Assembly: GCA_003021905.1 (NCBI GenBank)
Contig: PXPI01000117.1
Span: 1 to 53,486 of the forward strand
DNA: 53,486 nt
Reading direction: 5' to 3'
Source: Cyanobacteria bacterium SW_9_44_58
GTDB lineage: Bacteria > Cyanobacteriota > Cyanobacteriia > Cyanobacteriales > Rubidibacteraceae
Positions 16,269 to 24,377 of the stretch are shown here, piece by piece; position 1 is the stretch's first letter; the number at the start of each line of letters is the position of its first letter. The notes beneath the pieces were generated by a model, which searched no databases, was not told the origin of the DNA, and saw only the letters and a list, made by a program, of their open reading frames with translations. A program made the position numbers and the translations under genes.

Positions 16269-18371
16269 ATGGTAGTCCGCAGTCAAGCGGCTCCCCCCAC
16301 TCCTTGGTCAAAAGCTCTTGCTGAACCTCAAATTGACGAAAGTGCTTATGTTCATTCTTTCTCCAATATTATTGGCGATGTCCGAGTCGGACCAGAGGTG
16401 CTGGTAGCGCCAGGAACCTCAATTCGGGCTGATGAAGGATCGCCGTTTTCCATTGGGGAAAGTACGAATATCCAAGACGGCGTCGTCATTCACGGTTTAG
16501 AGAAAGGGCGTGTGGTGGGGGATGACCAACAAAAATATTCGGTTTGGATTGGAGAAGATACCTGTATTACTCACATGGCTCTGATTCATGGGCCTTGTTA
16601 TATTGGCAATCATTGCTTTATCGGCTTCCGTTCCACCGTCTTTAATGCTCGGGTTGGCAATGATTGCATTGTGATGATGCATGCCCTGATTCAAGACGTG
16701 GAAATTCCACAGGGGAAGTATATCCCGTCTGGAACAGTTATCACCAATCAACAGCAAGCGGATCGCTTACCCGATGTACAAGAATCGGATCGGCAATTTG
16801 CTCACCATGTGGTTGAGATTAATGAAGCCCTGCGCGCTGGTTATCAATGTGCCACTGATGCTAGTTGCATTACGCAAGTGAGAAATGAAGTCCATGGCAC
16901 GCAAGCTAATGGTAACGGGAATGGGGCAAAGGCAAATCAGCAAACTCGTTCAGCTCAGTCCAACAAGCAAGGGCCAAGGAGTAGGAGCAATCAACAACAG
17001 GAGGGAACTAAGTTGAAACAAGAAGCGATCGATCAAGTCCGATGGCTGTTGCAAGAAGGGTATCAAATTGGAACGGAACATGCCGATGAACGTCGTTTCC
17101 GTCGCAATTCCTGGCAAGGTTGCGCTCCGATTAAAGATCAGCAAGAAAACAAGGTCATTGCCGATCTCGAAGCATGCTTAGCCGAACATGAAGGAGAATA
17201 TGTCAGGTTAATCGGCATTGATCCGAAAGCACGGCGGCGCGTGTTGGAAACAACCATTCAGACACCGCAAGACAAGCCTAGTCAAAATCGAAGCTATCGT
17301 GCCGGGAATGATGCTCGTCAGCAACAAGCCGGCAGAAATCAAGGCAATCAAAATTATCAATCCGGCCAAGTTTCCAGCCAAACGTTAAACAGTTCGACAA
17401 CGGAACAAGTTCGTTCCTTACTGGCGCAAAGATATCACATTGGCGTCGAACATGCCGATGAACGCCGTTTCCGTCGCAATTCCTGGCAAAACGGCGCTCC
17501 TATTCAAAGCCAGCGTGTTAATGATGCCATTTCAGAATTAGAAGCTTGCTTGGCGGAATATCACAACGAGTATGTTCGTTTAATCGGCATTGACCCGAAA
17601 GCCAAACGGCGCGTATTGGAAACCCTCATTCAGGAACCGTCGCAAAATGGCGCCTCTGGAAGCAATAAGGGAAGTCGTCAAGGCTCCTCTCAAAGCAATG
17701 CCAACCGCAGTCAACAACAAAGCCAACAACTCAAAAAGGAAATTGATCAACAAGTGCGATCCCTGTTGAGCCAAGGTTACAGTATTGGTGTGGAACATGC
17801 CAATAAGCGCCGTTTCCGTCTGAATTCCTGGCAAAATGGCGGGTTGCTGGAAGGCAATGCCAATCAAGTTCTTTCAGAATTGAAAGCTCGTTTAGCCCAA
17901 CACAGCAACGAGTATGTCCGTTTGGTGGGGATTGACACCAAAGCCAAGCGTCGCGTGGTAGAAACCTTAATTCAGCAACCGGATCAAGAAGCTAGTTCCA
18001 ATCAGCAGTCTCAGGGCAGTTCCAGCTCCCAAAGCAGTAACCGCAGTTCTAATAATAGCAACAGCCAACAACGCTCTAAGCAACATAATGGGGGCAAAGC
18101 GAGCAGCAGTTTAGACCAAAATACGGTGGAACAAGTGCGATCGCTGCTCCAGCAAGGCTATAAAATCGGAACCGAACATGCCAATAAGCGACGTTTCAGT
18201 CTCAACTCTTGGCAAAATTGCGCTCCCATTGAAAGCACCCGTGAAGGAGAAGTGCTATCAGCCTTAGAAGACTGTTTAGCTGAGCATCAAGGAGAATATG
18301 TCCGCTTAGTGGGCATTGATCCCAAAGCGAAACGACGGGTGTTAGAAACAACCATTCAGCACCCGGCTTAA
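16269..18371 (+). CDS. ccmM: Carboxysome scaffold CcmM with gamma-carbonic anhydrase domain and four SSUL repeats
   Basis: CcmM condenses Rubisco and links it to the shell. Residues 1-210 form a left-handed beta-helix gamma-carbonic anhydrase domain. The zinc ligands are His75, His102 and His107, and Cys194 and Cys200 form the pair known to be needed as a disulfide for activity, so the domain is probably active. Four Rubisco-small-subunit-like (SSUL) modules follow at about 250-334, 376-457, 490-577 and 617-700, each ending in a YVRL-GID-KA-RRV-ET pattern and joined by Gln/Ser/Asn-rich linkers. An internal start at Leu249 probably gives a short form. The length of 700 residues fits four-repeat CcmM proteins. 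An AGGAGG site precedes ATG 16269. Confidence 0.96.
16999..17015 (+). promoter_or_regulatory. Internal ribosome site and TTG start for the short CcmM form
   Basis: Within ccmM, AGGAGGG (16999-17005) is followed after seven bases by an in-frame TTG (17013-17015, codon 249), just before the first SSUL module. It would yield a 452-residue protein with only the four SSUL modules. This matches the known short CcmM (M35 in Synechococcus, M52-like in Synechocystis), made by internal translation initiation. Confidence 0.75.
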
Positions 18372-18480: not shown

Positions 18481-19338
18481 ATGTCTGTGCTTTCCGTGCC
18501 TGCAACCGGTCACACACACGTTTATGTCAATGGTGATGTCAGTATTGAAGAAACCGCCGCGATCGCGCCTGGCGTCATTCTCCAAGCCTGCGGCGAAGGA
18601 CGCATCATCATTAAAGCAGGGGCTTGCCTTGGAATGGGAACGGTTTTAACCGCCAATCAAGGAACCATTGAAATTGGTGAAGGCGCCATTTTAGGAGCAG
18701 GGGTGTTAATTGTCGGTTATGGCAAAATCAGCGATCGCGTTTGTATTGGTTCGGCAAGTACAATCATTGAAACGTCTGTCGAGAACACGCAACTCATTTC
18801 TCCAGGCAGCCTCCTAGGAGACTCCTCCCGGCAAGAAACGCTCGCTAGGGGAGAAACTGAACAGCAACAGCCAAGCAGCAATACTTCCCCCTCCCCATCT
18901 GAACAGAAAGAACGATCAAGCAGTAACTCTGTCTCGGCAGGAAATGGGAGGCGCGATCGTCCTCAGCCCGATTATTGGGCTAGTTTTCCCTCAACGGGGA
19001 CTGCGGGGCAAAGCAACAGCAGTAAGTCTGCTGGGGCGTCAACGCCGAGTCAAAATCAAACCTATGGCAATGGCTACCCGGAAAAAGCCTCTGGAGAAAA
19101 CGCGCCTTCTTCCCAATCAGCAAGCAACCCCAATCCGGAACCGAATGCCAATACTAATCAAAATGGGAATCCAACTTCCTCTAATCAGGATTCCGCTTCC
19201 GGGAAGCAATATCCCTCAACCGGATCAAATGGAAAAATTTATGGTCAAACCCATATTGAACGGTTGATGGTTACCTTATTTCCGCACAAGGAACATTTCA
19301 AAGACAACAATGATAATCGCAATAATACCGTCGAATAA
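18481..19338 (+). CDS. ccmN: Carboxysome adaptor protein CcmN
   Basis: CcmN bridges CcmM in the core with CcmK in the shell. Residues 1-120 carry hexapeptide-repeat beta-helix turns (IAPGVILQ, AILGAGVLIVGYG, CIGSASTII). Next come about 110 residues of Ser/Asn/Pro/Gln-rich linker, and a C-terminal encapsulation peptide around IYGQTHIERLMVTLFPHKEH. That amphipathic helix is the known shell-binding signal. The linker is long. It is the last gene of the ccm operon, 109 bases after ccmM. Confidence 0.93.
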   Translation: MSVLSVPATGHTHVYVNGDVSIEETAAIAPGVILQACGEGRIIIKAGACLGMGTVLTANQGTIEIGEGAILGAGVLIVGYGKISDRVCIGSASTIIETSVENTQLISPGSLLGDSSRQETLARGETEQQQPSSNTSPSPSEQKERSSSNSVSAGNGRRDRPQPDYWASFPSTGTAGQSNSSKSAGASTPSQNQTYGNGYPEKASGENAPSSQSASNPNPEPNANTNQNGNPTSSNQDSASGKQYPSTGSNGKIYGQTHIERLMVTLFPHKEHFKDNNDNRNNTVE

Positions 19339-22417: not shown

Positions 22418-23035
22418 ATGACTACTAATACCGCTCAAACTGAATTTTTTACTCCGGCAGGGGATAGCGACTTATTAAAACAGCTCCCTTTTTTGCCTGG
22501 GCTAAAAGAGTTATTAATGTTGCGTCAAGTTCATGCCCTGGAACATGCAACAGTCTGGGTACTGAGCGAAACCGCTTCTTCCCGCAATTACAGCAGCTTT
22601 GCTCCCACTCGCGCCGATAACGAAACTTTGGGCGGCCTTTCCACAGAAAAAGGATTCTATCTCTATGGGGAAGTTCCGCCAGAACAACTGCGACGAGGCG
22701 TTATGACTGCTTTACAACGCTTTCGTCAAGGAGAATGGGATTTAGCCGTTCATCCCCGTTGCGGCACTAATGTTTCTGTTGCCTTACTTCTGACAGCGGG
22801 ATTTACCTTGGGATCTCATTTAATTTTACCGAAAGACCCCATTGCTCAGTTATTTGGGATGGGAATCGGCGCAAGTGTTGCTTCCTCTGTGGCACCGGAT
22901 GTTGGCGAGTGGACGCAGAAATATTTAACAACAGCGGTACCGTTTAATTTGGAGTTGGAAAAAATTTATTCAACCACTGACTTTGAGGGACGTTCAGCGC
23001 ATTTCGTCCAATTACAGTGGCACAATTTGCAATAA
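22418..23035 (+). CDS. DUF6391-like cyanobacterial protein
   Basis: I recognise this 205-residue protein only as a conserved cyanobacterial family, probably DUF6391. It has LLMLRQVHALEHATVWVLSE, then GGLSTEKGFYLYGEV and HPRCGTNVSVALLLTAGFTLG. The last of these starts a hydrophobic stretch (about 125-165) that could cross or enter the membrane. The histidines in HALEHAT and the Cys-containing HPRCGTN are striking, but no catalytic role is established. It starts its own unit after the rbc terminator and precedes psaE by 79 bases. Confidence 0.65.
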   Translation: MTTNTAQTEFFTPAGDSDLLKQLPFLPGLKELLMLRQVHALEHATVWVLSETASSRNYSSFAPTRADNETLGGLSTEKGFYLYGEVPPEQLRRGVMTALQRFRQGEWDLAVHPRCGTNVSVALLLTAGFTLGSHLILPKDPIAQLFGMGIGASVASSVAPDVGEWTQKYLTTAVPFNLELEKIYSTTDFEGRSAHFVQLQWHNLQ

Positions 23036-23114
23036 AACTTAAAATCAAAAGACCCCAAGACCCCCCATATTAATAGTACGCTTGGATTTAAAGGTTATTT
23101 TTCAGAAATTTATC

Positions 23115-23525
23115 ATGGCAGACGTTAATCGCAAAGACAAAGTTAGAATCCTCCGTAAAGAATCCTATTGGTATGGCGACGTCGGTACAGTTGCCAGTGT
23201 CGATCAAAGCGGGATTATCTATCCCGTCATTGTTCGCTTTGATAAAGTCAATTATTCCGGTGTCAATACGAACAACTTCGGCTTAGAAGAAGTAGAGGTT
23301 GTAGAAGCTGCACCCAAGAAAAAATCAAAATCTTCTTCAAGAAAAAGCGGCGGCAGCAAAACTGGTGCCAGCGCAAGTGCCAGTTCCGGTTCCAGTAAAA
23401 GCGCCAATAGCGGCAGTACCAGCTCCAGCTCTAATTCCGGTTCCAGTTCTAGTTCTAGTTCCGGTTCCAGTTCCAGTCAGGGGCAAAGCCAAGGCGGCCA
23501 AAGCTCTTCTAGCACAAGTCAATAA
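23115..23525 (+). CDS. psaE: Photosystem I subunit IV (PsaE) with a long Ser/Gly-rich tail
   Basis: PsaE is a small stromal-side subunit of photosystem I that helps dock ferredoxin. Residues 1-65 are a standard SH3-like Psa[36 protein letters not shown] and NFGLEEVE. The family normally ends near 70-75 residues. Here about 65 further residues follow: a basic stretch [10 protein letters not shown], then almost only Ser, Gly, Ala, Asn and Gln. I start at ATG 23115 (136 residues) because [12 protein letters not shown] fits the family; the frame opens 33 bases earlier. It lies nine bases upstream of mutM. Confidence 0.92.
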
Positions 23526-23534
23526 GGCAAATTT

Positions 23535-24377
23535 GTGCCGGAGTTACCAGAAGTCGAAACAGTTTGTCGCGGGTTAAATGAATTAACCCTAGGACAATGT
23601 TTTCAGGGTGGGGAAGTGTTGCTGCCTCGCAGTATTGCTCACCCTGTTTCTATTGCCGAATTTTGGCAAGGAGTAAAAAACACAAAGATTCAACAATGGC
23701 AACGGCGAGGAAAGTATTTATTAGCTAAACTTGACTCCAATGGCTGGTTAGGGATCCATCTTCGCATGAGCGGTCAACTGTTATGGGTGAAACAAAGCGA
23801 GCCTCTTGCCAAGCATACTCGGTTGCGCTTCTTTTTTCCTGAGCAATGGGAACTTCGTTTTATTGATTTGCGAACCTTTGGCCGCGTTTGGCAGGTTCCG
23901 CCCCATGTTCCTCCAGAAAAGATTATTACTGGATTAAAAAAATTAGGAGCAGAGCCTTTTTCTGCTCAGTTTACCCCTCAATATTTGGAAAAGAAGCTTA
24001 AAAACCGTCGTTGTGCCATTAAAACGGCTCTGTTAGATCAAAAAGTGGTGGCGGGAATGGGGAATATTTATGCTGATGAAGCGCTGTTTTTAGGAGGAAT
24101 TTCTCCGTTTCGAGAAGCAGCTAGTATCAGTTATGGGGAAATTGAACAGTTACACCAAGCGATTGTTTCTGTATTAAAAACAGGAATTGAGGAAGGAGGG
24201 ACGACTTTTAACAGCTTTCTCAATTTATTCGGGGTTAATGGCAATTATATGGGACAAGCTTGGGTATATGGTCGAGAGGGAAAACCTTGTCATTGTTGCG
24301 AAACGCTCATTCAACGACAGAAAATTAATGGACGTTCTTCTCACTTTTGTTGCCAATGTCAAAGCAACGATCAATGA
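23535..24377 (+). CDS. mutM: Formamidopyrimidine-DNA glycosylase
   Basis: This 280-residue glycosylase/lyase removes 8-oxoguanine and other oxidised bases. It begins PELPEVETVCRGL, where Pro2 is the nucleophile and Glu3 is catalytic, with a GTG start at 23535. Lys in GIHLRMSGQ and the helix-two-turn-helix region around GMGNIYADEALF are present. A C-terminal zinc finger (CHCC...CCQC) is present. The short gap after psaE suggests cotranscription. Confidence 0.95.
   Translation: MPELPEVETVCRGLNELTLGQCFQGGEVLLPRSIAHPVSIAEFWQGVKNTKIQQWQRRGKYLLAKLDSNGWLGIHLRMSGQLLWVKQSEPLAKHTRLRFFFPEQWELRFIDLRTFGRVWQVPPHVPPEKIITGLKKLGAEPFSAQFTPQYLEKKLKNRRCAIKTALLDQKVVAGMGNIYADEALFLGGISPFREAASISYGEIEQLHQAIVSVLKTGIEEGGTTFNSFLNLFGVNGNYMGQAWVYGREGKPCHCCETLIQRQKINGRSSHFCCQCQSNDQ

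Follow-up and report, generated by a model that had tools for sequence, protein, structure and literature searches.

The psaE gene of Cyanobacteria bacterium SW_9_44_58, a salt-lake-type cyanobacterium, encodes a 63-residue PsaE domain that is followed, in the same reading frame, by 73 extra residues (residues 64-136) in which Ser predominates. The product is probably an ordinary PsaE whose unconstrained C-terminus has been lengthened by slippage of in-frame repeats, with nearly neutral consequences. The gene lies on a contig of 53,486 nucleotides; this whole stretch of DNA was analysed and is referred to here as the window.

The psaE gene and the composition of its tail

Residues 4-63 of the predicted protein match the full length of the Pfam family PSI_PsaE (PF02427, photosystem I subunit IV) with a score of 115.4 bits against a cut-off of 27, and the protein also matches NCBIfam model NF002745 (105.8 bits, cut-off 88). 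The core was modelled by AlphaFold as five strands forming the PsaE barrel, with block means of pLDDT between 70 and 90. When this model was compared with solved structures using Foldseek, only PsaE chains were present among the matches listed (best E-value 3.6e-08). Both the fold and the closest solved chains are those of PsaE, and the product would be expected to assemble into photosystem I (PSI) and to assist ferredoxin docking. Most solved cyanobacterial PsaE proteins stop at about residue 70, whereas that of the window continues to residue 136.

The coordinates of psaE, its segments and its neighbours are collected in Table 1. The mechanical list of open reading frames offers a longer frame from a TTG codon at position 23082, but this start has no support from relatives and the ATG used here does. 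The GTG start of mutM lies nine bases past the psaE stop codon, as the preliminary description had stated. The psaE-mutM order is conserved in the congeners and in two further relatives (L031 and L019). The protein encoded upstream of psaE was found by tblastn in the same place in five congeners, with 72-79% identity, and at 55-60% identity in L019, L031 and a member of the wider family (G006). A few kb upstream of psaE are rbcL, ccmM (16269-18371, with repeated RbcS-like domains) and ccmN (18481-19338); the linkers of the ccmM and ccmN products are rich in Ser, Asn and Gln.

Table 1. Features of the psaE locus (positions in the window)
Feature	Position	Strand	Remarks
205-aa conserved cyanobacterial protein	22418..23035	+	upstream of psaE; marker of the orthologous locus; tblastn
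psaE	23115-23525	+	136 aa from ATG 23115
psaE core, residues 1-63	23115..23303	+	PsaE domain, SH3-like barrel
Lys-rich junction, residues 64-77	23304..23345	+	opening half matches the common PsaE ending
Ser/Gly-rich low-complexity tail, residues 78-136	23346..23522	+	composition; predicted to be disordered
Tandem array within the tail	23414..23477	+	Tandem Repeats Finder
psaE stop codon TAA	23523..23525	+	sequence
mutM (formamidopyrimidine-DNA glycosylase)	23535..24377	+	GTG start; open reading frame list

The long Ser/Gly-rich tail in a clean frame that had been noted in the preliminary description was confirmed. The last 70 residues, from P67 to the end, consist mainly of Ser (37) and Gly (10), together with Lys (7), Gln (5), Ala (4), Thr (3) and Asn (2). 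A basic stretch, which had been described as following the fold, is indeed present, but it is largely the ordinary Lys-rich C-terminus of PsaE. The sequence EAAPKKK at the start of the tail is common to all congeners, and endings of the form xAPxKK are widespread among the PsaE proteins sampled. Given that the Lys-rich AAPKKK is the usual PsaE ending, the unusual part of the protein is only what comes after it.

At the DNA level, the tandem array has a period of 6 (CAGTTC, 10.7 copies) and a period of 24 (2.4 copies), and codes for Ser-Ser and Ser-Gly. The Ser codons of the tail as a whole are mixed (AGC, 10; AGT, 10; TCC, 8; TCT, 7; TCA, 2), and therefore much of the tail is not fresh repeat. 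The tail is predicted to be disordered, in agreement with what had been proposed, since the AlphaFold block means of pLDDT are 42-47 over residues 71-130 and most of the tail lies below 50. With its repeat, its predicted disorder and its variability in length, the segment has the properties of a tandem-repeat-coded low-complexity disordered region.

Among the open reading frames of at least 60 codons in the window, no other 40-residue stretch is as rich in Ser as the PsaE tail (65%); the second richest (42%) lies in CcmM. The linkers of CcmM and CcmN are polar low-complexity sequence of the same kind; these linkers are, however, internal to larger proteins, whereas the tail of PsaE stands at the end of its chain and contains a much larger share of Ser. 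When the tail was used as a query against its own genome (2.94 Mb in 136 contigs, 99.7% complete), psaE alone was matched. A genome-wide habit of Ser-rich tails was rejected on this basis, the polar linkers of CcmM and CcmN notwithstanding.

Variation among relatives and origin of the tail

Five sampled congeners carry the same locus, comprising the gene for the 205-aa protein, psaE and mutM. Their PsaE cores are 90-97% identical and their tails are 14, 24, 16, 58 and 17 residues long, such that tail length in the genus, window included, ranges from 14 to 73 residues. In the six congeneric genomes the DNA can be aligned on both flanks of the tail, and the tail itself is the variable part, always in frame. 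Given that frame and flanks are kept while tail length varies, a frameshift, which the preliminary description had considered as a possible error after residue 70, is ruled out, and a fast-changing segment is indicated.

It is scarcely credible that the extension is some other artefact of assembly or annotation, with misassembly of the repeat setting the tail length or the real stop lying earlier. The genome is a draft of 136 contigs and the region does contain short repeats, but the contig continues without a break from psaE into mutM, frame and flanks are as in the congeners, and a separate assembly, that of congener G004, also contains a Ser-rich tail, distinct from that of the window. An error could conceivably affect the repeat count only, and not the presence of the tail.

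The tandem array inside the tail makes repeat slippage in an unconstrained C-terminus the best explanation of its origin. By this mechanism, short in-frame DNA repeats of 6 and 24 bp, coding for Ser-Ser and Ser-Gly, would have been lengthened by slippage at an exposed, cytosol-facing chain end on which the fold imposes no constraint. The tail is presumably made at full length and kept, and the product would then be a stromal subunit of PSI bearing, after its usual Lys-rich end, a flexible, uncharged and hydrophilic brush of ~60 residues. Its effect would be expected to be nearly neutral or, at most, weak and non-specific, for example on solubility or, in a salt-adapted cell, through steric shielding of the stromal face. 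Beyond the array itself, slippage is favoured by the aligned flanks, by the varying lengths over near-identical cores, by the different repeat found in G004, by the low pLDDT of the modelled tail and by tail lengths that span 8 to 93 residues in the family as a whole.

This congener is the only one of the five with a Ser-rich tail. At the same locus (L054/L160) its PsaE has a 58-residue tail of S, G, Q and K, similar in composition to the window tail, but the underlying 24-bp repeat is a different one (unit SQSSGSSS, 3.2 copies). The tail DNA of the window genome (G000) and that of G004 show no significant similarity, 199 of 1000 codon shuffles being as good, and shared ancestry of the two repeats was accordingly rejected. 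A tree of flanking proteins has support of only 22-44 at the base of the genus and so gives no firm placing of one genome relative to the other. Relatives L019 and L031, whose PsaE cores are close to that of the window, have short tails. The Ser-rich tail is lineage-specific.

Two observations argue against slippage, namely the mixed Ser codons, from which much of the tail is not fresh repeat, and the nearly identical composition (S, G, Q and a few K) that the window genome and G004 reach from different DNA repeats. Each of the nine genomes of the family has one PsaE; three further members have tails of 86 and 93 residues, both polar, and of 8 residues. The two long examples, G006 and G008, are rich in Q, S and G. 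In both genomes (L056 and L058) psaE lies beside mutM and the core contains a loop insertion. Core identity to the window is only 65-69%, which suggests a possible replacement of psaE in one of the lineages. Similar composition over different repeats, taken with the polar tails of G006 and G008, would also fit with selection for a hydrophilic disordered tail.

Such a selected, functional region would be a hydrophilic and possibly phosphorylated brush that tunes the access of ferredoxin or ferredoxin-NADP reductase (FNR) or spaces the stromal faces of PSI in a salt-adapted cell. The involvement of PsaE in ferredoxin docking and cyclic flow is consistent with this, and Ser31 of PsaE carries a phosphate in Synechocystis, at a reduced level in a SpkB mutant (PMC10651672). 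However, this phosphosite, the one encountered in the literature, belongs to the folded core and not to the tail, no conserved motif is present in the tail, and proteomic or kinetic data on it were not found in the open-access literature. In addition, the tail that follows the nearly identical core is just 14-24 residues long in four of the five congeners, which implies that PSI can function normally in this genus when no long tail is present. A selected role is considered unlikely, what favours it being the similar composition over different repeats and the recurrence of long polar tails in the family. The effects on ferredoxin docking, crowding and phosphorylation put forward in the preliminary description are possible but found no support here. 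Slippage in an unconstrained chain end is the preferred reading.

A conserved C-terminal module in other PsaE proteins

The preliminary description, which regarded a tail of this length as unusual, had proposed that PsaE tails be searched for among cyanobacteria. In a set of 119 PsaE sequences from the loci at hand, which is a biased sample, long tails proved not to be rare and to be of several unrelated kinds. A homologous C-terminal tail of ~60 residues is present in 34 of the 119, which represent at least 17 GTDB families, with the named strain ESFC-1 among them. Its consensus is SGGKQT.(I/L)....R.TG.G ... G(D/S)PNQGT(E/D)xR, ending at the very C-terminus, and it is termed here the NQGT tail; examples are found at L071, L079, L103, L020 and L032 (ESFC-1). 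An NQGT tail occurs in 0 of 36 sequences with an FSGSASG-type loop insertion and in 34 of 83 without it, an exclusion that may reflect ancestry only. Neither Pfam nor NCBIfam has a model for the segment. An NQGT-tailed PsaE was modelled poorly by AlphaFold (mean pLDDT 46).

Several genomes (G210, G212, G074, G323 and G287) have two psaE genes, one with a long frame that would accommodate a tail and the other shorter, and the two copies may differ in role. At L111 (G157:C123) a psaE pair lies side by side, the second gene having a 108-residue tail rich in A, K, Q and S and distinct from the NQGT tail.

The best whole-length match to the window protein in the PDB is 7qco_V (126 aa), a PsaE with a C-terminal tail of ~60 residues. 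The deposited sequence carries the NQGT tail (profile E-value 6.1e-24), of the form GGKQT...NQGTESR, whereas the window tail consists of Ser/Gly repeats. We take 7qco to be the entry for PSI of Chroococcidiopsis TS-821. The article on the structure from TS-821 mentions PsaE a single time, where it enumerates the subunits resolved (PMC8760143). Searches of open-access papers found neither NQGT C-terminal peptides nor any description of PsaE tails. A conserved portion of PsaE seems to have gone undiscussed in structure papers.

It is highly unlikely that the window tail is a decayed remnant of this NQGT tail. The PsaE core of ESFC-1 is 81% identical to that of the window and is followed by an NQGT tail, and against the tail profile the window sequence obtains a score a little higher than most of its shuffles do (19 of 500 being at least as good). 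However, GGKQT, R.TG, GDPNQGT and the terminal R are all missing from it, the tail profile has no match in the window genome, and a combined profile gives 21 of 500 shuffles an equal or better score; the short tails of L019 and L031, with their close cores, also count against a remnant. Membership of the window tail in the NQGT family was rejected, because shuffled versions of it can reach its score, whereas the two genuine tails taken as positive controls outscored every shuffle.

A profile (A1) built from the NQGT tails of PsaE only also matches short open reading frames of ~60-103 aa located far from psaE, with E-values down to 2.4e-19. Such matches include genomes in which PsaE is short-tailed, among them G170, G161, G042 and G137. 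The free-standing proteins are 55-80 residues long and similar to the PsaE tail nearly throughout, and the sequence comparison provides strong grounds for homology between the two. Their genes lie at loci L137-L156, for example L137:1979-2233 (+ strand), L144:2032-2238 (- strand) and L146:1962-2270 (+ strand), and the host genomes are Nostocales-like or belong to other families.

Among 60 relatives of the window, the fused form was found in 15 and the free form in 9, 3 of these having both, and neither was found in 39, the last including all nine genomes of the window's own family. Of 291 genomes drawn from across the class, 90 had at least one A1 match. Mutual exclusion of the fused and free forms was considered and rejected, the 3 genomes with both comparing with ~2 expected by chance. 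No constant neighbours of the free-standing gene were seen beyond a few related Nostocales-like loci, and a plasmid search with the free-standing protein gave no match.

The fusion to PsaE suggests a link between the NQGT protein and PSI; if the link is real, the free-standing protein would be hinted to act at the stromal face. More broadly, and tentatively, the PsaE C-terminus may be a recurrent site of disordered PSI extensions, of which the window would hold a freely evolving Ser-rich version and at least 17 families a conserved module of ~60 residues that is also made as a separate small protein.

For the window itself, the finding is a modest curiosity, namely that the C-terminus of PsaE tolerates 70 extra, probably disordered, residues. 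The NQGT tail and its free homologue matter more than the Ser-rich tail and merit separate study. The sharing of a PsaE tail with an unnamed, free-standing small protein yields a testable prediction of a possible PSI-associated factor.
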